From contig NZ_OY762229.1 in NCBI RefSeq assembly GCF_963665355.1, positions 2,108,001-2,172,000 on the forward strand: DNA of 64,000 nt, read 5' to 3'. The notes under the pieces are model-generated. The model was not told where the DNA came from and did no database searches. It saw only the letters and a program-made list of their open reading frames with translations. The DNA is from an uncultured Desulfobacter sp. (GTDB taxonomy: Bacteria > Desulfobacterota > Desulfobacteria > Desulfobacterales > Desulfobacteraceae). Both the position numbers and the translations under genes were made by a program. Positions 4,623 to 17,574 of this stretch are shown in pieces (positions within the stretch are counted from its first letter, which is position 1; every line of letters begins with the position of its first letter).

Positions 4623-6188
4623 TCAGGAAGAGTGCCGCGAATATGGGGCGGCCGGCAGAAGAAAGCTGAAGGTTGCGCCTTGGTCTGAACTCGTTACCGT
4701 AATATCACCGCCATGGGCATGAATGATGGCCAGGGCCAGGCTGAGCCCCAACCCGTTTCCGGACGTCGACCGGCTTTTGTCGCCGCGGAAGAAACGCTCG
4801 AAAATATGCGGGAGGTCGCTTTTGCTGATGCCGATGCCTGTGTCGGAAATTAAGACCTTCACATCCCGGGCGTCACTTTTGATTGTCACGGTTATGATGC
4901 CGCCCTGGGGCGTATATTTGACGGCATTGTCCAGGATGTTCGATACCACACGTTGAAGCCTGCGCCGGTCACCGGTGACCGGCGCCGCCATACCTGGTTT
5001 ATTCAGGCGGATATCAATGCGCTTATCCTCGGCCACGGGCATAAAGAGGTCAACCGCGTCTTCCACAAGTTCAATAAGGTCCAAAGAAACCGGATCAAAG
5101 TCGAAATTGCCTGAGTCTGTCTTTGCAATTTCGAGCATGGTGCCGATAATCTCAATGAGATCGTCGCATCCGTCAATAACCGAAGCCATTGTTTCCTTAT
5201 ACTCAATGAGATTATCATCTGCCTTGAGTGTTGTTTCAGCCATTCCCCGGATTCGGGTGATGGGGGTACGCAATTCGTGGGCAACATTGTCGGTGACCTG
5301 GCGAACCTCGCTAAAAAGAATTTCGATCCGTTCGAGCATGGCATTGAACGCCCGGGCCAGGGCGGTTATCTCTTCCCCCTCATCACCCAGCGGCACCCTT
5401 CCGGCCAGATCGCTTCTTCCGATCCCCGTTGCCGTATCCGTGATCCTTTGCACGCCTGTCATGGCCTTCCGGGCCAGCAAAAAACTAAGAAGGCCGCCGA
5501 GACCACCCATGACCATGAGCGCAACGCCAAAGGTTTCTCGATATTTTTCCAGAATGAGTTCCTCGCTGTAAAGGGTCTTGCCTATTTGAAGCACTTCTCC
5601 GTCACCGATGGGCAGGGAGATCATTCTGATCTGAAAATCCCGTTCATCCTCTTCACCCTTTCGGCCATGCTCCTTTTCCGGCTTTTGCAGGTGCAGGTGA
5701 AACGTATAGTATGCCGACCGGGTTCCCCGGGGCGCAGGTTCGTTGGGTATTGATAAACCGCTCTCCCGCAATTTACTCAAATCAGAGGATGCCAGGGATG
5801 TTTCATCGGACGAAAGCAATCGGAAAAATACGCGGCCCGAGCCTTGGGACTCCGCTTCGCGCTCGAATTCATACTGGAGTGCCGCAATGCCCTGTTGTCG
5901 ATAAATTGCAGCAGATTCTTCTGCAGTAGTCAAAAGAACCTTGTCCATCTGGTTTTGGAGGCGCAGGGCCAGGGATGCATAGACAACGAGAAACACCGCA
6001 ACGGAAAGGATGGTGAATACCGCAAGATTCAAGAAGGTCAATCGAAAAGTTGTTGTTTGAAAAAAACGGATGCGAACCAGGGCCGCCTGCCAAGATTGCA
6101 TAAATTTATACGCATCGGCCGCTATGCGTTGAATGCTCAGCCAACACCTCTTTGCCGTGTGGCGGCGTCCTGAAAGAAAATCACTCAT
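4623..6188 (-). CDS. Membrane sensor histidine kinase (EnvZ/PmrB class)
   Basis: 521-residue kinase paired with the OmpR-type regulator just upstream. Layout: cytoplasmic N-terminus of about 45 residues, TM1 at about 48-75, periplasmic sensor domain to about 218, TM2 at about 220-240, HAMP (ITDTATGIGRSDLAG), dimerisation domain with phospho-acceptor His304 in VAHELRTP, then ATPase motifs NILDNAVKYTPQGG, DTGIGIS and GNGLGLS. The start is set at 6188 because ATG overlaps the regulator stop as ATGAGTGA; longer readings run into the regulator. The periplasmic domain is acidic around residues 176-184, a feature of cation- or peptide-sensing kinases, but the ligand is unknown. It probably phosphorylates the neighbouring regulator. 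Confidence 0.9.
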   Translation of the reverse strand: MSDFLSGRRHTAKRCWLSIQRIAADAYKFMQSWQAALVRIRFFQTTTFRLTFLNLAVFTILSVAVFLVVYASLALRLQNQMDKVLLTTAEESAAIYRQQGIAALQYEFEREAESQGSGRVFFRLLSSDETSLASSDLSKLRESGLSIPNEPAPRGTRSAYYTFHLHLQKPEKEHGRKGEEDERDFQIRMISLPIGDGEVLQIGKTLYSEELILEKYRETFGVALMVMGGLGGLLSFLLARKAMTGVQRITDTATGIGRSDLAGRVPLGDEGEEITALARAFNAMLERIEILFSEVRQVTDNVAHELRTPITRIRGMAETTLKADDNLIEYKETMASVIDGCDDLIEIIGTMLEIAKTDSGNFDFDPVSLDLIELVEDAVDLFMPVAEDKRIDIRLNKPGMAAPVTGDRRRLQRVVSNILDNAVKYTPQGGIITVTIKSDARDVKVLISDTGIGISKSDLPHIFERFFRGDKSRSTSGNGLGLSLALAIIHAHGGDITVTSSDQGATFSFLLPAAPYSRHSS

Positions 6189-6861
6189 CCCTTTCTTCCA
6201 GACTATATCCGACGCCCCGGACCGTATGAATGAGTTTTTTTGCGAATGGGCGGTCAACCTTGTCCCGCAGCCGGCATACCCGCGCTTCCACGACGGAAGT
6301 CCGGGGGTCGAAGTTGTAATCCCAAACGTGCTCCATAATCATCGTTTTCGACACCACTTTCCCCTGGTTCCTCATCAAATACTCAAGCAATGCAAACTCC
6401 TTGGGCTGCAAATCTATGAATATGCCTTTCCGAAAGACCTTCCGTTTCGCCAGGTCCATTTCGAGGTTGCCGACGGTGAGAGATGTCGGGCCGTCCTCCC
6501 GGGTGGCCCTTCTGATGAGGGCCTGGATGCGCACGACCAGTTCCGAAAAGGCGAATGGCTTTACCAGATAGTCGTCACCACCTGCCTGCAAGCCTCTGAT
6601 ACGGTCGTCCACCGATCCCCTGGCGCTTAAAACGATAACAGGGGTATGGACTCTGTTACGGCGCGCCTCATCAATCAACGCCAGTCCATCCAGTTTGGGG
6701 AGCATAATATCAATCACTGCAGCATCATAGGGCTCGGTCAGTAAAAAATGAAGTCCGTCTTCGCCATTGGATGCAAGATCTACGGCAAAGCCTTCCTGTC
6801 TTAGACCTTTTGAGATAAAGTGAGCCGTCTGTCCGTCATCTTCGACGATTAATACCCTCAA
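6181..6861 (-). CDS. OmpR/PhoB-family response regulator
   Basis: 226-residue two-component regulator. Receiver: acidic pocket EDD at residues 7-9, phospho-acceptor Asp51 in IDIMLPKLDG, conserved Lys101 in LVKPF. C-terminal winged helix with PKEFALLEYLM and HTVRGVGYSLE. A TTG start at 6861 is chosen because GGAGG lies 7 bases ahead and the receiver starts at once (LRVLIVEDD); longer in-frame readings would extend into dedA. It lies between dedA (28-base gap) and the kinase (overlap). The paired 11-bp direct repeats upstream of both dedA and arnB fit binding by an OmpR-type dimer, so this is the likely regulator of both operons and of itself. Confidence 0.9.
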   Translation of the reverse strand: MRVLIVEDDGQTAHFISKGLRQEGFAVDLASNGEDGLHFLLTEPYDAAVIDIMLPKLDGLALIDEARRNRVHTPVIVLSARGSVDDRIRGLQAGGDDYLVKPFAFSELVVRIQALIRRATREDGPTSLTVGNLEMDLAKRKVFRKGIFIDLQPKEFALLEYLMRNQGKVVSKTMIMEHVWDYNFDPRTSVVEARVCRLRDKVDRPFAKKLIHTVRGVGYSLEERDE

Positions 6862-6889: not shown

Positions 6890-7582
6890 TCATTTTTGTT
6901 CGGTTTTGAACTCCGATATACAAGACGCCGGCAAATCACTATATTCCGGTCGGCTTTCATCATTGCCCGGGACTATTGTCCGCAGCGAACGGCTGCGCCA
7001 TTTGCGCCAATAAAAGAACACGATGCCAGCGCAGGTGGCAACCAAAAACAGGGTGACCCAGCTCAGGTTTTGCAGCACAAGCTGCTCGTTGCGGCCGAAC
7101 CAGTATCCCAAACCCGCCAGCACCGCCACCCATAGCCCCGCCCCCAGAGCCGTGGCCGCGCAAAAGGAGAAAATATTCATTCGAGATAAGCCGGCCGGCA
7201 AAGAAATATATTGGCGAATTCCCGGCAGCAGACGCCCGATGAACATGCTGATATTGCCGTGATGCTCGAAAAAACGATCGGCTTTTTCCAGGGATCCAGA
7301 GCTGACCAGTAGGTATCGCCCGTACTTTTCAAAAAACGGCCGTCCGAACTTCAGAGAAATCCAATAGTTGAACAAAGCACCCAACAGACTTCCCAGTATT
7401 CCGCAGAGAAGAACCATGCCGATGTTCATTTTTCCCGTGGCCGCAAGATATGCGGCCGGCGGGATGACCACCTCACTGGGAAAGGGGAAAAAAGAGGATT
7501 CCAAAACCATAAGCATCACGATACCGGGATATCCCCACTGTCCAACGGTATTTGCAAGCCAGGCGACAAATTGGTGAAACAT
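6890..7582 (-). CDS. DedA family membrane protein
   Basis: 230-residue inner-membrane protein of the DedA/SNARE-associated family. Seen: the acidic entry motif [17 protein letters not shown] (residues 28-44) and the hallmark [18 protein letters not shown] in the middle, with about five hydrophobic segments. DedA proteins take part in recycling of lipid carriers, including undecaprenyl phosphate, and several are needed for resistance to cationic peptides and for Ara4N modification of lipid A. This is the first gene of the dedA-regulator-kinase operon, preceded by the direct-repeat promoter at 7691-7723. Family certain; the link to aminoarabinose is inferred from neighbours. Confidence 0.9.
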
Positions 7583-7690: not shown

Positions 7691-7723
7691 AATATACGCC
7701 TCCAAGTATGAAGAAAGTGTGAA
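7691..7723 (-). promoter_or_regulatory. Direct-repeat operator and promoter of the dedA operon
   Basis: Read on the minus strand: TTCACA (7723-7718), 5 bases, TTCATA (7712-7707), 10 bases, TATATT (7696-7691) as a -10 hexamer. The half-sites are 11 bp apart, the one-turn spacing used by OmpR/PmrA-type regulators, and the proximal one replaces a -35 box. The same arrangement, including the 10-bp gap, lies upstream of arnB. Confidence 0.65.
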
Positions 7724-7749
7724 CAAAAGAGTTTTGAATCTGGATGTTG

Positions 7750-7775
7750 TGGGTTTTTATATGAAAGTCCGGGTA
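7750..7775 (+). repeat. Fragment of the dispersed repeat (head only), copy E
   Basis: GGGTTTTTATATGAAAGTC followed by CGGGTAA resembles the head of copy D (GGGTTTTTATTTGAAAGTC). The hairpin core is absent. It lies downstream of the lptG stop in the same relative orientation as the complete copies. Low information content, so it may be chance. Confidence 0.35.
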
Positions 7776-7800
7776 AGTCAGTCCGAATTTTGACGCACTG

Positions 7801-8880
7801 CTATTCTATGTAAATTAAAAAAATACCTCCAAGGCAGAAAAAAACCAGATTGCTGACCCAGGCAGCCGCCAGCGGCGGCAGGATTTTGGCGTATCCTAAA
7901 GAGATGCACAGTCCGAACGCAAACCAATATAAAAAACTGATGACTATGCCCACCCCCACCGCTCCGGGCAGGTTATTTCGGGATAGGGAACTCATACCCG
8001 TGGCCGCCCCGGCCAGCGCCAGGATCACACTGATAAAGGGAAACGCAAGCTTTCCATTCATGTCCACCTTATAGGTCGCGGCGTCATATCCTTCTGCCGT
8101 AATTTGCCGGATATAGGCCCGAAGCTGAGACCAGCTCATCTCTTCAGACTGAAGGACTACAGCCCCTAAGTCTTCGGGTTTAATGTCCAACTGCAGCTCC
8201 ATGGTTGGCAGATTCCGGACTATGTACTCTTTTTTTTCAGGATTGAGTACCTGCTCGGCCACTTCTGTCAAACGCCATTTTCCATCATGGTATTCACCTG
8301 TTTTGGCATCAACTCTTCGAAGTATCTTAAACCCCTTTCCCAGGGTGGTTGCTGTGATCCCGGCGATTCGTTCGTGGGCCGGGTCGAAAAAGTCAATATG
8401 CAGCATACCCTGATTCGATTTAATCCAGATATCCGACCGTCTATGGGAAACGTTTTTGTTTCCCGACCTCTCTTGATTCCAGATATGATTGGAAAGGACC
8501 ATGGCCGACGGAACAATGGTTTCCCCCAGGAAAAAGGCAGCCAGCGCAAGGACCGAGCCGGCAAGAAGAGCGGGCTTGATCAGGAAATATACAGAGATAC
8601 CTGATGCCTTCAGCGCCATCAGTTCTCTGTTCCGGTTCATGACGCCAAAGGCGTAGATTACTGCCAAAAGCAGGCAGGCCGGTGCGAACTGGACAAACAT
8701 GAAGGGCAGCTTCAGCAGGACACACCACAGCCCACGGGCCATGGTGACATCGGAATTTAAAAAGTTATCGATCCTGGACAGGTAATCGATAAAAATAAAA
8801 ATAGTCAGCAGAATGATCTGAATGATGCAAAAATATCTTAAAAATTCCTTGAGCCAGTATCTGTGCAGGCAGGCTTTCAT
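7801..8880 (-). CDS. lptG: LptF/LptG family LPS export permease, probably LptG
   Basis: 359-residue inner-membrane subunit of the ABC machine that lifts lipopolysaccharide from the membrane to the periplasmic bridge. Layout: TM1 at about 15-33, cluster of helices to about 120 with the family motif MNRNRELMALKASGIS, a periplasmic jellyroll-type domain at about 130-265, then three C-terminal helices. LptG is preferred over LptF from the N-terminal helix and length. A partner LptF and the ATPase LptB are not in the window. It is the last gene after arnE and a kinase (53-base gap), an unusual location that ties LPS export to lipid A modification. Confidence 0.82.
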   Translation of the reverse strand: MKACLHRYWLKEFLRYFCIIQIILLTIFIFIDYLSRIDNFLNSDVTMARGLWCVLLKLPFMFVQFAPACLLLAVIYAFGVMNRNRELMALKASGISVYFLIKPALLAGSVLALAAFFLGETIVPSAMVLSNHIWNQERSGNKNVSHRRSDIWIKSNQGMLHIDFFDPAHERIAGITATTLGKGFKILRRVDAKTGEYHDGKWRLTEVAEQVLNPEKKEYIVRNLPTMELQLDIKPEDLGAVVLQSEEMSWSQLRAYIRQITAEGYDAATYKVDMNGKLAFPFISVILALAGAATGMSSLSRNNLPGAVGVGIVISFLYWFAFGLCISLGYAKILPPLAAAWVSNLVFFCLGGIFLIYIE

Positions 8881-8933
8881 AACGGCAGATCCTTTACGCC
8901 GTTATCACGGCTTTTCTGGTTTGGTATTGGTTT

Positions 8934-10340
8934 TCATGTCAGACCTTTTTGCCGGGAATACGGCAGATGGACGATGACTTTTGTCATTTCACCCATACAG
9001 CTTTCAAGGGTCACTTGTCCGCGGTGAAGTTCGATGATTTTTTTGACCATGGCCAATCCCAGCCCCGAGCCGCCATGCTGGGTGGATCGGGATTGTTCAA
9101 TGCGGTAGAATTGTTCGAATACCCTGGGGATCTGGTGGGGGGCGATTCCCGGCCCGGTGTTGGCAAATGTGATGACAATTTCTGAAGCCAGTTTTTCTGC
9201 AGTCACGTCAATGCGTCCCCCGTCCTCACTATACTTTACTGCATTGTCCAGAATATTTGAGAAAGCCCGGCCCAGCATTGCTGAATCTGCCTGAATTTCC
9301 ATGTCTTCGGGAAAACAAAGAGACATCGTGATTCCCCGTGTCTCAGCAAGGAAGCGGTACTCCTCGGCCAGTGATGATAACAGGCGGCTCACATGGACTA
9401 TGGCCCAATCCAGACTTGAAAGGGTTTCCAGGCGGGATAGGTTCAACAGGTCCTTGACCAGCCGGTCCATGCGCAGGACCTGGATTCTGAGGCTCTGAAG
9501 AGCCTCTTCCCCGGAGGAGTTTTCCCCGGTCAGATCTGACACAATGAGCTCATCCACCACCAGCCGCATGGTGGCCAGTGGTGTTTTCAGTTCATGGGAG
9601 GTATTGAATAAAAACTCTCTCTGCCGTTCAAAAGAGTTCTGCAATCTGTCCAGCATTTTGTTAATGGTTCGGGCAAGGTCGTTGAATTCATCCGGATCAT
9701 CGCCGGCCGGTATGCGCTGATCCAGGTTCTCTTCACAAATCATTTGGGTCAGATCCTTCATCCGGGTGACGGGCTGAAGAATTTTTCCCGCCAGCAGGCG
9801 GCTGACGGCAGTCAGGCCCAGGATGGAAAAAATAAGGCCGGCAAAAAAACCTAAAATCATTTCCATGATTTCTTCTTCCAGTTTTTCCATGGGCCGTGCG
9901 ATTTGGGCTGCAAAGGTGTGTCCGTTGAGTGCAATGGTAAAAGACCGGACTCTGAGAGTCATCTCCCGGCTGTCGTCTGTTTCCGTGTTCAGCTTTGGTA
10001 AAACGGCTTTTTCAATGGCGCTGTGGCCGGGTTCCAGGGGCGGAAGAGACATATGTGTGGCCAGTTCTGATTTGAAAATCAGCCTCTGGTTCTCCATGTC
10101 CCGAATCTGAACCCAATACCGTTCCAGTTCCCGATGGAGCAGGAGATCATCTGCGGAACCTTTCTCAAACCGTTCCGAGGCGACGAGCCTGACGGTGCGG
10201 TAGGCTTCTTCCTGAAGGATGTTATCTAACAGCTCAAAGGGCTGCTCCACCAGTTCATAAAATAAGGCGATGGAAAACAGCAGGCTGCCTATGACGCCGG
10301 CTCCCACAATCAACACAGAAATCCTGGTTTTAACAGTCAT
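8934..10340 (-). CDS. Sensor histidine kinase inside the arn operon
   Basis: 468-residue membrane kinase: TM1 at about 7-29, periplasmic sensor region to about 158, TM2 at about 161-184, HAMP, phospho-acceptor His249 in FNTSHELKTPL, N-box NILDNAVKYSEDGG, ANTGPGI and the G-box GGSGLGLAMVKK. It follows arnE by 24 bases and precedes lptG, with no response regulator gene beside it. The nearest regulator is the OmpR-type one at 6181-6861, which already has its own kinase. It may be a second input to that regulator; this is inference. The role as a kinase is certain from the motifs. Confidence 0.9.
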   Translation of the reverse strand: MTVKTRISVLIVGAGVIGSLLFSIALFYELVEQPFELLDNILQEEAYRTVRLVASERFEKGSADDLLLHRELERYWVQIRDMENQRLIFKSELATHMSLPPLEPGHSAIEKAVLPKLNTETDDSREMTLRVRSFTIALNGHTFAAQIARPMEKLEEEIMEMILGFFAGLIFSILGLTAVSRLLAGKILQPVTRMKDLTQMICEENLDQRIPAGDDPDEFNDLARTINKMLDRLQNSFERQREFLFNTSHELKTPLATMRLVVDELIVSDLTGENSSGEEALQSLRIQVLRMDRLVKDLLNLSRLETLSSLDWAIVHVSRLLSSLAEEYRFLAETRGITMSLCFPEDMEIQADSAMLGRAFSNILDNAVKYSEDGGRIDVTAEKLASEIVITFANTGPGIAPHQIPRVFEQFYRIEQSRSTQHGGSGLGLAMVKKIIELHRGQVTLESCMGEMTKVIVHLPYSRQKGLT

Positions 10341-10364
10341 GGTTTACTCCTTTTTCCCAGGTGC

Positions 10365-10736
10365 TCATGCTGAGCGGGTGACCAGCCAGACCCCGATACA
10401 GATAACGGCAATTCCGGTCCAGCGCGTCGGGCTGAGGCTTTCCTGAAACAAGAACCATCCCGCAAAAGCCGTGACAATGTATCCGATGGAGAGCAGAGGA
10501 TAGGCATAGCTGACCTCGACCCTGGAGAGTACCAGCAGCCAGACCACCACACTGATGACGTAACAGGTCAATCCGGCAATAATATAGGGGCTTGAGGCAA
10601 CAGCAAAAAAAAGGTGACTGCTGTTCTGCAGGGAAAACTCAAAGTAACCGATTTGCCGCATGCCCTGCTTGAGGGCCAGTTGGGCGGCCGCGTTCAGCAG
10701 GACGCCAAAAATAATCAGAGGAAGGTAGCCGGTCAT
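10365..10736 (-). CDS. arnE: ArnE-like Ara4N-phosphoundecaprenol flippase subunit
   Basis: 123-residue, four-helix membrane protein of the small multidrug resistance fold. In enterobacteria ArnE and ArnF together flip undecaprenyl-phosphate-Ara4N across the inner membrane. Seen: NAAAQLALKQGMRQIG near the N-terminus and the last helices with LSPTRWTGIAVICIGVWLV. The start at 10736 has AAAGGA ahead and follows arnT by 11 bases. No second small gene (arnF) follows; the next gene is a kinase. It may act as a homodimer or with a partner encoded elsewhere. Confidence 0.8.
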   Translation of the reverse strand: MTGYLPLIIFGVLLNAAAQLALKQGMRQIGYFEFSLQNSSHLFFAVASSPYIIAGLTCYVISVVVWLLVLSRVEVSYAYPLLSIGYIVTAFAGWFLFQESLSPTRWTGIAVICIGVWLVTRSA

Positions 10737-10747
10737 GTTTTTTCCTT

Positions 10748-12430
10748 TTAATACCGCCAGAACACATATCCTGTGGGACCGTTCTGGTCTTGAAAAACAG
10801 GGGTGGGAAATTGACTCTGCCATTTCGCCGCATTTCTGACTCTGGCGACCAGGATCGTCTTCCCGGGGTTTTTTCGGATCAGGTCGGCTGCGGCTTTGAC
10901 ATCAAGCTGCCTTCCATGGGCATCCGGGTATGTCAATCCGTAATTCATTTCACCGGACCCGCCGAGTATATAGACGTCGCTTCGTTTCAAATACCAGCAG
11001 ACCGCCCTGAGCGAATTCTCATCGGAAATGATGATGTTGTCACGGGTAACGCTTTGTCTGTACTTTTCCAGAATAGGTCCGGGGGATTTGACTTCACGGG
11101 TCAGATCCGGGAGGGTGAAGTGAACAATGAAAAAGAAAAACAGGGGGGCGGTACCGAAGAGAAGGAGCTTGACCCGCAGATGACGACTTTTTAAAGACCA
11201 GACGCAGAGCAGCACAAAAAAGGCCAGGCCGTTGATGACCATCATTACCTTCCAGGACTCTCTGAAAGGCCGGAATCCGTTGAAGCCGAAAAATTGGACC
11301 AGGGGGAAGGCAAGGAGAATGACTGCGAACAGAATGGCGGTCACGGCCGTTCCGCCCTGAAAAAGCCGGTTCGGCCCCGACGTCTTAAACCGGTGCCGGA
11401 GCCCGGACGCCATGAGAATGGCAAAGGGCGGAAAACAGGGCAGAATATAGGTGAGAAGCTTTCCCCTGGACAAAGAGAAGAACAAAAAAGGCAGGGCCAG
11501 CCAGCAGAGGCTGACACGCAGCAGCCGGTTTTTTGAATCGCCCCCGGGGAACTGGGCCGCGATCCCCCGGACAGCGGCCGGGGCAACAAATGTCCAGGAA
11601 ATGAACATCGCCGGAGCCGTCAAAAAGAAAAACCAGAAGGATTCCCGGTGCTGGGCGTTATCTGCCAGGAATCTGCGGATATGTTCATTCCAGAAGAAAA
11701 AATGCCAGAAATCCGGTTCTTTCAAATGAATCATGATGCCCCAGGGCGCTGAGACAATCACAGCCGTCAGGATCGGCAGCCAGCTCATCCGGAACAGGTC
11801 CTTGTATCTTCGTTCCAGGATCAGATAGGGGGCAAGGGTCAGCACCGGTACGGCCAAAGCCAGAAACCCCTTGGTCAGGAAGGCAAAACCGCAAAAAACA
11901 CCGGACGCCAGCAGCCGTATTTTTTCCCGCCTTGAACCCGGCACAGCTTCAGACGCAAGAAAAAACCAGGCTATGGTGGCTGTCAGAAAAAATGAAAACA
12001 GATTGTCCAGTACAGCGGTATTGCCCACGCCAAAGACCTCAAAACAAGACAGAAAGATCAAAGGGGCCACCAGGGTGTAGAATCCATCCTCTTCATCCTC
12101 CCGGCGGCCTGCATTGCGCATCAACAAAAAGATCAGAACCGCGGACAGGCCCACGGAAAGCGCCGACGGAAAGCGCACGGCAAAGTTGTTCTCCCCGAAA
12201 GCTTTAAGGGATGCGGCATGAACCCAGTAGCCCATGACCGGTTTTTCAAAGTAGCGCAGCCCGTTGATATGGGGGGTAGTCCAGTCGCCGCCGGCAATCA
12301 TCTCCCTGGGCACTTCGGCATATCTGGTTTCATCGGGTACCACAAGATCTCTGACCCCCAAAGGCAGGATATAGGCCAGCAGAAAAAAAGAGATCAGCAG
12401 CAGGACGGTAGATTTGTTTATGTTGCTCAT
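10748..12430 (-). CDS. arnT: ArnT-like lipid A aminoarabinose transferase
   Basis: 560-residue GT83/PMT-fold integral membrane glycosyltransferase. ArnT moves 4-amino-4-deoxy-L-arabinose from undecaprenyl phosphate onto the phosphates of lipid A at the periplasmic face, lowering negative charge and giving polymyxin resistance. Seen: TM1, then the first periplasmic loop with VPDETRYAEVPREM, the conserved Asp-Glu of this family; about a dozen hydrophobic segments; a soluble C-terminal domain. Length fits (about 550). The ATG at 12430 overlaps the arnD stop as ATGA; a longer reading would run into arnD. Placement between arnD and arnE makes the assignment firm. Confidence 0.9.
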   Translation of the reverse strand: MSNINKSTVLLLISFFLLAYILPLGVRDLVVPDETRYAEVPREMIAGGDWTTPHINGLRYFEKPVMGYWVHAASLKAFGENNFAVRFPSALSVGLSAVLIFLLMRNAGRREDEEDGFYTLVAPLIFLSCFEVFGVGNTAVLDNLFSFFLTATIAWFFLASEAVPGSRREKIRLLASGVFCGFAFLTKGFLALAVPVLTLAPYLILERRYKDLFRMSWLPILTAVIVSAPWGIMIHLKEPDFWHFFFWNEHIRRFLADNAQHRESFWFFFLTAPAMFISWTFVAPAAVRGIAAQFPGGDSKNRLLRVSLCWLALPFLFFSLSRGKLLTYILPCFPPFAILMASGLRHRFKTSGPNRLFQGGTAVTAILFAVILLAFPLVQFFGFNGFRPFRESWKVMMVINGLAFFVLLCVWSLKSRHLRVKLLLFGTAPLFFFFIVHFTLPDLTREVKSPGPILEKYRQSVTRDNIIISDENSLRAVCWYLKRSDVYILGGSGEMNYGLTYPDAHGRQLDVKAAADLIRKNPGKTILVARVRNAAKWQSQFPTPVFQDQNGPTGYVFWRY

Positions 12431-13353
12431 CGGGACAACTCCTCCAGGTTGGCGCAGGGTTCGGACACAACGTCCTGGCAGGAGATCCATCCCTCCCTGC
12501 CGGGCACAGTCGCTTGGGTCATGTATGATGTTTCAATTTTAGGGATGCCGGCATATACCTCACCTATAGGGGACAAGCCGATTCCCCGCTGACCGGCGCG
12601 GTTCAAAAAATCATCGAACAGGTCCAGGCATAGGATGCCCTCGGCCTCGGCATGAATGGTCAGCACGTTAAACCGGCCGGGTTGGATCAGGCTCAACAGA
12701 TAATCATTATAGTTGTCCTGTGTGCATTGCCGGCCCACCAGTTCATCATAGGCCGGCAGGGTGGTCGGGACTTGGGGATGATGGTAGCGTTGCCCGTCTA
12801 TGACCGGATAAAAGGGTGCGGTTCCCCGGCAGTCGGACTCAAACCGGAAGGGGAACTGCTCCAGGGCGGCCAGGGCCTGTGGGGTGACCTTCCAGGCCGG
12901 AGCCGCAAAACAGTCCGGTGTCCGACCGATGATTTTTTCCAGCAGTTCATACCCCTTGCGGATCTCCTTTGCAACGGCGTCTGTGTCCAGTTTTTCAATG
13001 CTGTTCTGCCAGCGGTGGTGGTCCCAGGCATGGAGCCCCACCTCATGGCCCTCCTTTGCCGCACGGCGCATGGGTTCGGGGCTTTTTTCGCCGATGACGG
13101 GTCCGGGCCACAGGGTCCCCTTAAGCAAAATGTCCCATCCGTAGAGGCCCACGGCCTTTGTCCTGAACATTTTCACCAGAAAAGCCGGCCGTACCAGCCG
13201 CCGGAGATGGCGGCCCATATTGTCCGGCCCCACAGAGAAAAAAAAGGTGCCCCGGACCTTATGGCGCGCCATCAGGTCCAGCAGCGCCGGAACCCCTTTG
13301 CGGGTGCCGCGCAGGGTATCCACATCTATCCTCAATCCGACCCGGGTCTTCAT
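12427..13353 (-). CDS. arnD: ArnD-like deformylase (polysaccharide deacetylase family)
   Basis: 308-residue NodB-fold enzyme that removes the formyl group from undecaprenyl-phosphate-4-deoxy-4-formamido-L-arabinose. Seen: metal-binding Asp pair in [11 protein letters not shown] (residues 7-17), His residues in HAWDHHRW, and [12 protein letters not shown], all as in ArnD; length fits (about 300). The start ATG overlaps the arnA stop (ATGA) and the end overlaps the arnT start. Acts on the cytoplasmic side of the inner membrane before flipping. Confidence 0.92.
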
Positions 13354-15338
13354 TCTTCAGTGTCCATGCTGTCCACAGAGTTGAGGAAGTAATCCAAAGT
13401 CTCTGCCACGGATTGTTCAAAGGGGACCGTCGGGGTCCACCCCAGTATTTTCTGGGCCGGGCGGATGGATGGACGCCGGTGCTGGACATCCTGGTAGCCG
13501 TCCCCGTAATAGGTCCGGGCCTCGATGCATTCCGTGCCGCTGTCCGGCGGAAACTGGGACCTTCGCGGGTGTGCGGCGAATTTTTTTCTGAGAATGTCGG
13601 CAAGGTCGGCCATGCTGTATTCGTTATCCGGGTTGCCGATATTGAAAATTCGCCCGTTGCATTGGCCGTCTTTGTCTTCAATGATTTTGAACAGGCATTC
13701 CACTCCGTCCCTGTAATCGGTGAAGCAGCGTTTCTGTTGTCCGCCGTCCACCAGGCGGATGGGAGAGCCTTCCACCAGATTTAAGATAAACTGGGTGATG
13801 ACCCGGGAACTGCCGATTCGGGCGGATTTGAGGGAGTCCAGTTTGGGGCCGACCCAGTTGAAGGGCCGGAAAATGGTGAAGGGCAGCCCCCGGGTCTTTC
13901 CATAGGCCCAGATGACCCGGTCCAGCATCTGCTTGCTACAGGAGTAGATCCAGCGCTGCTTATGGATGGGACCCAGGACAAAGTTGGAGTGATCCTCGTC
14001 AAATTCATCATCTGCGCACATGCCGTACACCTCCGAGGTGGAGGGAAAAAGCAGCCGCTTTTTGTATTTGACGCAGTACCGGACAATGCGCAGATTTTCC
14101 TCAAAATCCAGCTCAAAGACCCGTAGGGGGTTCCTGACATACTCGATGGGGGTGGCGATTGCCACCAGGGGCAGGACGATATCACACTTTCGGACGTGGT
14201 ATTCAATCCACTCCCGCATGATGGAGATATCCCCCTCCTTGTAGTGAAAATCCGGATGTGTCATCAGATCCCGGATGCAGGCCGACCTCAGATCCATGCC
14301 GTGGACCTCATAGCGTCCGCTGTCCAGAAGCCGTTTGCTGAGATGGTTGCCGATAAAGCCGTTGACGCCGAGAATCAGGACGCGCTGCTTGCGGCCTGCC
14401 TCTGCCACAGGCGCTGTCTTGCCGTCAAAAAGCATGCCCGGCGCAAGCTTCATCTCCTGTGCAAGCTGTGTTCCGCTCATGTAAAGGCCGTCTTTCCCCT
14501 GGCCGAACCGCACCGTCACTGCATTTGTGCCGCAGGCGATGCAAAAAGGATCTACGGAGAGGACAGTGCCCGGAAGCGCATCCGGCACCGAGGATGTCTC
14601 TGCCACATCCCAGAAAAGGCATTTCCGGTTGCCCAGGAAGGAAAAGGCCCCGGGATAAGGACGGGTCACGGCACGCACCAGGTTCCTGACATCCTGGGCG
14701 CTTCGGGTCCAGTCGATCTGTCCATCCTTGGGTTTTCGGCCTCCGAAATAGCAGGCCTGGGATTTGTCCTGGGGGATGCGCGGTGCGCGGCCGGCCAGGA
14801 TTTCGGGCAAAAGCTCCGCCAGAAGGTCTCCGGCAGCCGTACCGATCTTATGGTGCAGGGTCAGGGCCGTGTCCGTTTCATGGATAGTCACCTGTTTTTG
14901 TCCCACAATGTCCCCGTCATCGGGGCGGGGGGTCATGTGGTGAAGGGTGACACCGGTCTGGGTCTCCCCGTTGACCAGGACCCAGTTCACAGGACACCGG
15001 CCCCGGTAGCGGGGCAAAAGGGAGCCGTGGAGATTCATGCATCCCCGGGGAGGGACGGCCAGGATTTCGGGGCCGACCATGTGGCGATAGTAAAAGGAAA
15101 AAATATGATCCGGGGCCAGACTTCTGATCCGCTCAACCCAGAGGGGGTGGTTGATATCTTCGGGAGCATAGACCGGGATACCGTTGGCGGCAGCCAGTTC
15201 GGCCACAGACTGGAACCAGACGGCTTCGTAGGGATCATCTTCATGGGTAAAAACCGCCTGAATTTCGTATCCGTGGGCCAAAAGTGTTTTGATGCCGATG
15301 CATCCGATATTGTGATAGGCCAGTACAATGGTTTTCAT
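13350..15338 (-). CDS. arnA: Bifunctional UDP-glucuronate decarboxylase / UDP-Ara4N formyltransferase ArnA
   Basis: 662 residues, matching the usual 660. The N-terminal formyltransferase half has Asn102 and His104 in [12 protein letters not shown] and the catalytic Asp near 140 in [11 protein letters not shown]; it formylates UDP-Ara4N using 10-formyl-tetrahydrofolate. The C-terminal half (from about 313) is an NAD-dependent short-chain dehydrogenase: [16 protein letters not shown] and YSCSKQ (Tyr-x3-Lys); it oxidises and decarboxylates UDP-glucuronate. The ATG has GGAG ahead, inside the end of arnC. The 10-formyl-THF needed can come from the Fhs/FolD pair at 43-46 kb. Confidence 0.96.
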
Positions 15339-15341
15339 AAA

Positions 15342-16313
15342 TTACTCCTTGGTGTCAAGGTCAGTCGGAGATCCACAGTTGGCACCTGTGATTTCCTGGA
15401 TAAAAAAGCGGGGCCGTTCCCGTACATCGTGATAGATCCGCCCCAGATACTCCCCGAGAAGTCCCATGCCGACAAACTGGGCTCCGATAAAGAAAAAGAG
15501 TATTGCAAACAGGGTGAATATGCCTTCGGCAGCCCACTGGGACCCCCACGCGAACCGCAGCACGATCAGCAGCAAACCGAAGCCTATGCCGCCGGCTGCA
15601 ATCACCGATCCGATCAGAGACAAAAGTCGCAGGGGGTAGGTGGACATGGAGGTGAGCAGATCAAACTGAAGGGAAATCAGCTTGAAAAAGCTGTACTTGG
15701 ATTCTCCGTTTTCCCGGGAGGCGTGATCGACAGGAATTTCCACGGTGCTGCCGGCAAAACTGTTTGCCAGAATGGGAATGAAGGTGGAGCGTTCACGGCA
15801 CTGGAGCATGGCCTGGACAATAGGCCGCCGGTAGGCCCTGAGCATGCAGCCGTAATCTGTCATCATTACGCCGGTGGCCTGCCGGACAAGCCGGTTGATC
15901 ACGGTGGACGCGCTGCGGCGGAACAGGGAGTCCTGCCGATGCTGACGCACAGTGCCGACCACGTCCACGCCGCGGTCCATCTCCGCCACCAGCCTGGGGA
16001 TCTCTTCAGGCGGGTTTTGGAGGTCCGCATCCAGGGTCACCACGATGTGGCCCCGGCTCTGTTCCAGTCCGGCAAAGACCGCCGGGTGCTGGCCGTAATT
16101 GCGATTTAACAAAATCCCCACGATTTCCGGGTGCCGGTCGGCGGCTTGTCGAATAAGCTCCCGGGAACCGTCCCGGCTGCCGTCATCCACCAGGATGACT
16201 TCAAAGGGCCGTTTCATGGGTTTCAAGGCGGAAAGGCATCGGTCCACAAGTTCCTGTATGTTTTCTTTTTCGTTATATACCGGGATGACAACAGAAATAT
16301 CCGGTTCCTTCAC
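15342..16313 (-). CDS. arnC: Undecaprenyl-phosphate Ara4FN transferase ArnC
   Basis: 323-residue family 2 glycosyltransferase that attaches 4-formamido-arabinose to undecaprenyl phosphate. N-terminal GT-A domain: [13 protein letters not shown], the metal-binding [12 protein letters not shown], then two hydrophobic helices at about 235-290 anchoring it to the inner membrane. The start is GTG, overlapping the arnB stop as GTGA. Length and position match ArnC of enterobacteria. Confidence 0.93.
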
Positions 16314-17458
16314 GCCAGCACCTCCTTAATGGCGTCCACAACACCGTCCACGTCCTCCGGCGTCATGTCGGGAAACAGGGGCAAAGAGCAGATCCGGTCT
16401 GAATTCCACTGGGTGTGGGGCAGGTTTTCAGCAGCAGAAGGCATTGTTTCCCGATAGTATTTCTGGGTGTGGGTGGCCTTAAAGTGGATGCCGGTACCGA
16501 TGTTTCTGCGTTTCAGTTCGTCCATGAAGGTTGTCCGGTCCATACGCGCCCCTTTGGTATCCAGACGAACCACAAACAGGTGCCAGGCATGGCGCATGGG
16601 ATAGGACGGCAGGGACAGGGGCAAAATTTCATCCACCTGGGCCAGACGTTCCAGGTAGCGACCGGCCAGCAGGGTCCTTTTTTCGATAAACCCCTCCAGC
16701 CTGTTCAGCTGGCCCATGCCCAGGACCGCAGCAATGTCGGTGAGGTTATACTTAAATCCGGGCGCCAGCACTTCGGCCTGGGGGGAGCGGCCCAGCCTAG
16801 TCCTGTCATAGGCGTCCACCCCGAGCCCGTGGAATTTCAGCTGGCGGACCGCCGCCAAGAGCTCGGGATCATCCGAGCAGACCATGCCGCCTTCGCCGGA
16901 TGTCATGTTTTTAATGGGGTGAAAGGAAAAAATGGTCGTTCCTTGGCAGCCGATCCGCTCTCCCCTGTATTCAGTGCCTGCCGCATGGGCCGCATCTTCA
17001 ACCAGAGGAATTTTTCGTTCCCGGGCCAGGCGGCGTAAGGGTTCCATGTCTGCGGCGGCGCCTGCAAAATGCACCGGAATGATCAATTTTGTCCGTTCCG
17101 TGATGAGGGGTTCGACGGTTTGGGCAGAGATCATGAGCGTGTCACGGTCTGTATCTGCAAAGACGGGGACGGCACCGGCCAGCTTGATGAGGTTGACGGT
17201 GGAGACCCAGGTCATGGACGGGGTGATCACCTCGTCTCCGGGGCCGATACCCAGGACTGTCAGCACAAGATGCATGCCGCCCGTGGCCGAGCACAATGCA
17301 ACCGCGCCCTGTGCATGGCAGTAGGCAGAAAACGCGTCTTCAAATTCAGCCGCCTTGGGCCCGGTCGTAATCCAACCGGATCGCAGGACATTTGCGACGG
17401 CTTCAATTTCAGGCTCGCTGATGGATGGTCTGGAAAACGGCAGAAATTCAGATCTCAT
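16310..17458 (-). CDS. arnB: UDP-Ara4O aminotransferase ArnB
   Basis: 382-residue PLP enzyme (DegT/DnrJ/EryC1 family) that transaminates UDP-4-keto-arabinose, with glutamate as donor, to UDP-Ara4N. Seen: [14 protein letters not shown] at the N-terminus, cofactor site with EDAAHAAG, and the Schiff-base lysine in [13 protein letters not shown]. The start ATG at 17458 has GGGAAC ahead; an upstream in-frame reading adds 13 unlikely residues. First gene of the arn operon, with the direct-repeat promoter about 85-115 bases upstream. Confidence 0.95.
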
Positions 17459-17541
17459 ATGTTCCCTTTTTTGACGTATTTTTTTTAAACAAAACATCTT
17501 TCCGATAGACGGCCTGATATGAATAGGCGACTACGTCATGA

Positions 17542-17574
17542 ACTATGGCATACAGATTATGAAGATGTTATGAA
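17542..17574 (-). promoter_or_regulatory. Direct-repeat operator and promoter of the arn operon
   Basis: Read on the minus strand: TTCATA (17574-17569), 5 bases, TTCATA (17563-17558), 10 bases, CATAGT (17547-17542). The repeat is CTTCATAA twice with an 11-bp period, like the PmrA box CTTAAK-N5-CTTAAK. Architecture and spacing are identical to the dedA promoter at 7691-7723. The -10 matches TATAAT at four of six positions. It implies a leader of about 75 bases. Confidence 0.65.

Follow-up and report, generated by a model that had tools for sequence, protein, structure and literature searches.

A conserved direct-repeat promoter box at arn, dedA and an unlinked OmpR-type regulator operon in Desulfobacteraceae, with a candidate regulator

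In a 64,000-nucleotide stretch of an uncultured Desulfobacter genome (contig NZ_OY762229.1, positions 2,108,001 to 2,172,000; hereafter the window), the promoters of arnB, which heads the aminoarabinose operon, and of dedA carry the same direct repeat at a fixed distance from a −10-like hexamer. The match between the two promoters is genuine, and both are part of a conserved outer-membrane-remodelling gene set in sulfate-reducing bacteria. Comparative sequence analysis indicates that the sites are probably activator boxes of a Desulfobacteraceae regulon for lipid A and envelope remodelling, and that the most likely regulator is a candidate we call RRB, an OmpR-type response regulator encoded about 380 kb from the window sites. 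Most knowledge of how aminoarabinose addition and other lipid A changes are controlled comes from enterobacteria, Pseudomonas and Xanthomonas; the conservation of box, spacing and candidate unlinked regulator over several sulfate-reducer genera provides a testable regulon in environmental bacteria.

A first-pass annotation of this DNA had described both promoters as TTCAYA-N5-TTCATA followed, after ten bases, by a −10-like hexamer, and re-reading of the minus strand bears out the coordinates and the spacing. The arnB site (17574-17542) reads TTCATA-ACATC-TTCATA-ATCTGTATGC-CATAGT and the dedA site (7723-7691) reads TTCACA-CTTTC-TTCATA-CTTGGAGGCG-TATATT. The features on which the argument rests are the following, where G000 is the 5.64-Mb genome holding the window and C2 its contig label.

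17558..17574, minus strand: arnB box, TTCATA-N5-TTCATA; kept in G003, G015 and G016 with one or two mismatches
17542..17547, minus strand: arnB −10-like hexamer CATAGT, ten bases past the box; CATAGT or CATAAT in the three orthologous promoters
7707..7723, minus strand: dedA box, TTCACA-N5-TTCATA; kept at dedA in G006 (two copies), G015 and G016
7691..7696, minus strand: dedA −10-like hexamer TATATT, ten bases past the box; TATATT in G006a, G015 and G016, TATACA in G006b
G000:C2:2508604-2509278: RRB, OmpR-type response regulator

Within the window, the exact repeat occurs at these two sites only. A resemblance by chance could draw on the behaviour of the looser motif, which at up to two mismatches is not enriched in the window (13 matches against a shuffle mean of 8.9, with 15 of 100 shuffles reaching 13). 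Genome-wide, six exact repeats stand against two for the reversed pattern; a hand estimate from this count predicts about 0.07 exact repeats in a stretch the size of the window and a chance of about 0.002 of meeting at least two, values that are a guide only, the motif having been picked after the data were seen. When YANNNT is demanded ten bases downstream, three genomic matches are left (control, 0), before arnB, dedA and a sulfatase-family gene; the remaining three exact repeats sit within long reading frames. Trained on the other promoter classes alone, a weight matrix ranks the dedA site first and the arnB site second among all window positions on both strands, although this ranking is not fully independent, its training promoters having first been found with the first-pass pattern. 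At orthologous promoters the same spacing is kept while the spacer sequences vary, which already contradicts a chance likeness, and we give that explanation practically no credence.

The third genomic match, an exact box at C2:2506480 with TATCGT ten bases downstream, heads an operon encoding a sulfatase-fold enzyme, RRB and a histidine kinase, HKB. The lead gene encodes a 653-residue sulfatase-fold membrane protein (Pfam Sulfatase) that fits LtaS rather than EptA models, its best NCBIfam model being LtaS at 86 bits, far below the cut-off; G020 showed no sulfatase gene in the interval from box to RRB. Behind the operon, in convergent orientation, lies a methyltransferase-like gene with a weaker box, whose highest-scoring models, LmtA at 44 bits and ICMT at 43, fall below their cut-offs of 325 and 160. 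In several relatives a PAP2 gene and a dgkA-like gene also lie within the boxed RRB operon, neither of which is present in the operon of G000; a search of G000 for the PAP2 lipid A family gave no match and is uninformative, as none of 14 controls gave one either.

Conservation in relatives was assessed in 145 genomes with the pattern box, N10 and YANNNT, which gave 33 matches across 26 genomes (control, 6); 17 of the 33 fall in 11 of the 26 genomes having an RRB match at E 1e-70. RRB at 69% identity or more is encoded in 22 genomes, and in all 19 readable cases (G007, G013 and G052 are unreadable at contig ends) the promoter of its operon carries the box with 0-2 mismatches. One relative, G071, has its stretch contained within a contig of Desulfobacula sp. 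isolate D100SM.bin.15, on which the assignment of the family to Desulfobacteraceae is based. The box further precedes arnB in G000, G003, G015 and G016, dedA in G000, G006 (twice), G015 and G016, an LmtA/ICMT-like methyltransferase gene in eight genomes, and a GtrA-glycosyltransferase-ArnT-like set in one genome, G020. The shared box with its fixed −10 spacing, noted in the first-pass annotation, is conserved at orthologous arnB and dedA promoters, the pattern anticipated for an OmpR-type direct-repeat activator site. We tabulated 37 sites, leaving out G013 (contig end), the second G072 site, two L162 sites, a site in G015 and the TTCATG-type sites of G118, G129, G137 and G069 arnB. YANNNT stands exactly ten bases past the box in 34 of the 37, with 0-6 sites at each other spacing from 5 to 17; by hand count, 22 of the 37 were found without demanding a −10, and 19 of these have YANNNT. 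Information content reaches 1.57 and 1.73 bits per position in the two half-sites and 1.06 in the hexamer, against 0.57 in the ten-base spacer and 0.25-0.47 in the flanks. The 11-base period was built into the search and proves nothing alone. Placing the hexamer at −12 to −7 would put the box at −39 to −23, where a −35 element would otherwise stand. The omitted G015 site is box-like (TTCACGGGTTTTTCATA, with a −10 of TATCTT) and precedes a metallophosphatase-like lipoprotein gene, its function judged by eye (L256:2095-3501).

More distantly, RRB-like loci carry TTCATG- or TTCATC-type boxes in G118, G137 and the metagenome-assembled genome (MAG) GMC4 (0 of 60 shuffles each) and in G129 (1 of 60); no such box was found at G069's own regulator locus, where 9 of 60 shuffles reach the score. 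Five of 80 named genome loci have any of the searched neighbour genes, and only L161-L163 are clearly of the RRB kind. At L163:1-8464 an arn cluster combines two ArnT-like genes, arnF, an LptF/G-like gene, an RRB-like regulator, a kinase and a dgkA-like gene.

Box and RRB were also compared by co-occurrence. Within the same genus, the exact box with its −10 occurs in 9 of 12 genomes with RRB and in none of 7 without (Fisher test, 0.003, kinship ignored). Among chosen genomes, again with the −10 included, the site is found at 0-1 mismatches in 12/12 genomes with RRB and at two or fewer in 0/6 same-genus genomes without, a contrast whose Fisher value of 5e-5 is overstated as the genomes are kin. 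The unlinked arnB promoter is a cleaner test of the link than RRB's own operon: all four same-genus genomes with arnB have the box there, each with RRB at 80% identity or more, and among the other arnB genomes it is found in one of nine, namely G069, whose RRB relative is 62% identical.

Several observations weigh against RRB as the reader. The Fisher tests are not independent: the genomes share ancestry, and with the box located on RRB's own operon, loss of the operon also removes the box. Matches to box and −10 also occur in genomes lacking RRB (16 of the 33, in 15 of 119 such genomes) and are mostly unexplained, against a control of 6 over all 145; at three mismatches, all 18 chosen genomes have matches (87 with RRB, control 14; 18 without RRB, control 8). 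The RRB-like regulator of L163 (57%; MAG bin10093) sits inside an arn operon with no recognisable box, and arnB of G129 and of G137 has none. RRB also has the same metal-regulator family as RRA, the regulator behind dedA, for its best NCBIfam model (203 bits, against 197 for PmrA). Finally, the scoring of regulators covered 20 candidates per genome rather than every regulator one by one. That scope, together with the 16 matches in genomes lacking RRB, would suit a third regulator that reads the box and counts RRB merely among its targets, as an operon under a box need not encode the box's reader. Yet genus members without RRB are without the site at two or fewer mismatches, and OmpR-type systems usually autoregulate through the encoded regulator; we regard a third reader as improbable and retain RRB as the preferred one.

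The regulator closest to the promoters is RRA, and the genes around it and the two boxes are arranged as follows.

16310..17458, minus strand: arnB, 382-residue start, with a longer frame to 17497 (NCBIfam ArnB 583 bits, just below the cut-off of 631)
15342..16313, minus strand: arnC (NCBIfam 489 bits, cut-off 529)
13350..15338, minus strand: arnA (NCBIfam 1065 bits, above the cut-off of 777)
12427..13353, minus strand: arnD (NCBIfam 368 bits, cut-off 382)
10748..12490, minus strand: arnT (NCBIfam 475 bits, cut-off 567)
10365..10823, minus strand: arnF/arnE-like flippase subunit (NCBIfam ArnF 72 bits, cut-off 99)
8934..10340, minus strand: HK2, histidine kinase in the arn operon without an adjoining regulator, of RRB-partner type by the kinase tree
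7801..8880, minus strand: lptG (NCBIfam LptG 270 bits, above the cut-off of 240)
6890..7582, minus strand: dedA, UptA-like (NCBIfam UptA 112 bits, cut-off 250)
6181..6861, minus strand: RRA, OmpR-type regulator of the CusR/CzcR/CopR kind by profile scores and comparative loci
4623..6257, minus strand: HKA, kinase partner of RRA

An UppP/BacA-like gene (called by eye, 1894-2886 of the window) lies close to dedA and arn, a possible undecaprenyl-phosphate recycling cluster.

The first-pass annotation correctly placed an OmpR-type regulator gene in the dedA operon: RRA starts 28 bases past the dedA stop, under the dedA box. Its further proposal, that RRA (6861-6181) binds both boxes and so controls itself and the arn operon, fares poorly. 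In its favour, besides this position, an exact box stands upstream of the 96% identical RRA of G006 even though dedA there is internally deleted, and in genus g13 a 60% RRA paralog has TTCAYR-N5-TTCAYR in its promoter, exactly in 2 of 13 genomes and with one mismatch in 4. RRA at 75% identity or more is nevertheless confined to 3 of 145 genomes, G000, G006 and G029 (77%). G015 and G016 have the box at both dedA and arnB, but their best RRA match is a 60-61% family-wide paralog and dedA is not followed by RRA and HKA; conversely, G029 has RRA and arnB, lacks RRB, and shows no box at either gene (best, 4-5 mismatches), whereas the box heads the RRB operon in every readable case. A 250-base scan of 30 RRA-type loci found nothing better than two mismatches in 29, the sole exception, G030, having been included because of its match. 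The g13 repeat is not conserved and coincides in part with a TTGATT...TATAAT promoter, which puts the −10 elsewhere. RRA is therefore unlikely to be the master, because boxed dedA and arnB promoters occur without it and its nearest relative outside the genus has no upstream box; it is probably a passenger of the dedA promoter, and direct control by RRA seems to us a doubtful reading. The case illustrates a pitfall, in that the regulator closest to the promoters is probably not their reader.

Two observations on these loci may be added. The exact match in G030 was rejected as an RRA-type box, TTGATT and TATAAT being the conserved parts across 13 aligned g13 promoters; in that genus (L243-L255), some RRA-paralog promoters hold TTCAC-AGGGG-TTCAT-like spacers inside the TTGATT...TATAAT promoter. 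In G006, box and −10 are exact at the locus with the deleted dedA (L008), and a further, full-length copy of dedA sits some 7 kb off under a box of its own (L068).

The protein profiles bear on RRA as a reader, alone or alongside RRB. RRA and RRB both exceed the Pfam cut-offs for the PF00072 receiver and the PF00486 Trans_reg_C winged helix (OmpR/PhoB-type), and TIGR01387 (CusR/CzcR/CopR) is the best model for each, at 261 and 203 bits respectively, both under the cut-off of 279. That both are OmpR-type, and that RRA lies under the box in G000 and G006, would accommodate a box common to the two, originally RRB's, at which an RRA recruited behind dedA cross-regulates in those two genomes. They are only 37% identical, however, and their recognition helices are unlike: that of RRB resembles BasR's (SNYVDVHMKNLRKK, TNTLEVHIHNLRDK), whereas that of RRA (TSVVEARVCRLRDK) does not and is of the CusR kind. 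With relatives of RRA lacking the box as well, a shared box appears unlikely.

A further link between RRB and the arn operon may run through HK2. In a tree of 23 kinases, HK2 is separate from HKA and clusters (support 97/95) with the G015 ortholog and with the kinases that adjoin RRB-like regulators in G069 and G129; the branches of BasS, L218, the HKA paralog and L163 are long, and their placement is unsure. Because of this grouping, HK2 may feed RRB. It is present in the arn operon of G015 and absent from G016. From the boxes, spacing, conservation and gene neighbourhoods observed, we infer a scheme for signal, binding, activation and the HK2-RRB link. HKB, and perhaps also the arn-encoded HK2, would be activated by a signal at the envelope, of which excess metal ions and cationic peptides are possible examples. 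Phosphorylated RRB would bind TTCAYR-N5-TTCATA head to tail, with the box replacing a −35 one turn upstream of the −10, and would recruit RNA polymerase and switch on its own operon, arnBCADTF-HK2, dedA and the methyltransferase gene; in G000 and G006, RRA and HKA behind dedA would be turned on as passengers. More tentatively, the arrangement might form a layered circuit in which RRB induces arn and with it HK2, a second sensor of the RRB type, giving a two-sensor positive loop, and in which the dedA promoter of G000 and G006 captured an incoming metal-type RRA/HKA pair that adds a layer downstream, the ancestral dedA being dispensable there (decayed in G006).

The first-pass annotation had also suggested that the box may be new. 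Its distinction from PmrA holds, the PmrA box CTTAAG-N5-XTTAAT (PMC3973317) being absent here, where sites read TTCAYR; novelty is too strong a word, as the box is near the ColR consensus and has the TTCAT core in common with the TorR box. Within the open-access papers searched, among them PMC11887813 by a word search of its main text, no description of this regulon in sulfate reducers came to light. The box itself is not unprecedented, and that of ColR is the nearest published one.

For ColR-ColS of Pseudomonas, the consensus is (T/C)(T/C)NA(C/G)NN(T/C)TTTTT(C/G)AC, with TTCACACTTTTTTCACA as an example site, and targets include PP0035 (GtrA), PP0900 (PAP2) and PP1636 (DgkA) (PMC2689224). Grouped with it here is RaxR-RaxH of Xanthomonas, whose raxRH genes adjoin arnT, lpxE and eptA (PMC8306577). 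Both boxes are direct repeats of TTCAC-like half-sites with an 11-base period; the dedA site fits 14 and the arnB site 12 of the 16 consensus positions. With the box matrix, four of seven published ColR sites beat dinucleotide shuffles at the core (p 0.013 or less), PP2561 (p 0.05) and PP0903 (p 0.20) have unconvincing scores and PP0900 has its best match off the core. The regulons overlap in kind, through the PAP2 and dgkA-like genes in boxed operons of several relatives and GtrA in G020. The present box departs from that of ColR: consensus position 11 is C and position 16 usually T, the second half-site is better conserved, and the −10 spacing is fixed. RRB is apparently autoregulated through its box, whereas colR is not (PMC4074579). 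The same source gives ColS a 96-residue periplasmic part; HKB, by crude hydropathy, has about 127 residues between its hydrophobic segments with one ExxE at the end, and the ColS-type 96-residue domain with an ExxE motif was not found in it.

In PmrA-PmrB (BasR-BasS) of enterobacteria, regulator and kinase likewise follow a sulfatase-fold membrane transferase gene (eptA-basR-basS in E. coli), an unlinked arn operon is a target and the half-sites are five bases apart; the recognition helix of RRB is also BasR-like. Against this, the lead enzyme of the RRB operon fits LtaS models instead of EptA, RRB falls below the PmrA equivalog cut-off (197 bits against 330), and the PmrA pbgP site scores 2.1 with the box matrix (p 0.06). 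The TorR box (CTGTTCATAT) shares the TTCATA core and differs in comprising 10-base boxes at TMAO respiration genes (PMC9239176); TorR is 31% identical to RRB, compared with 41% for BasR. The PmrA and TorR boxes are both further from the box described here than is that of ColR.

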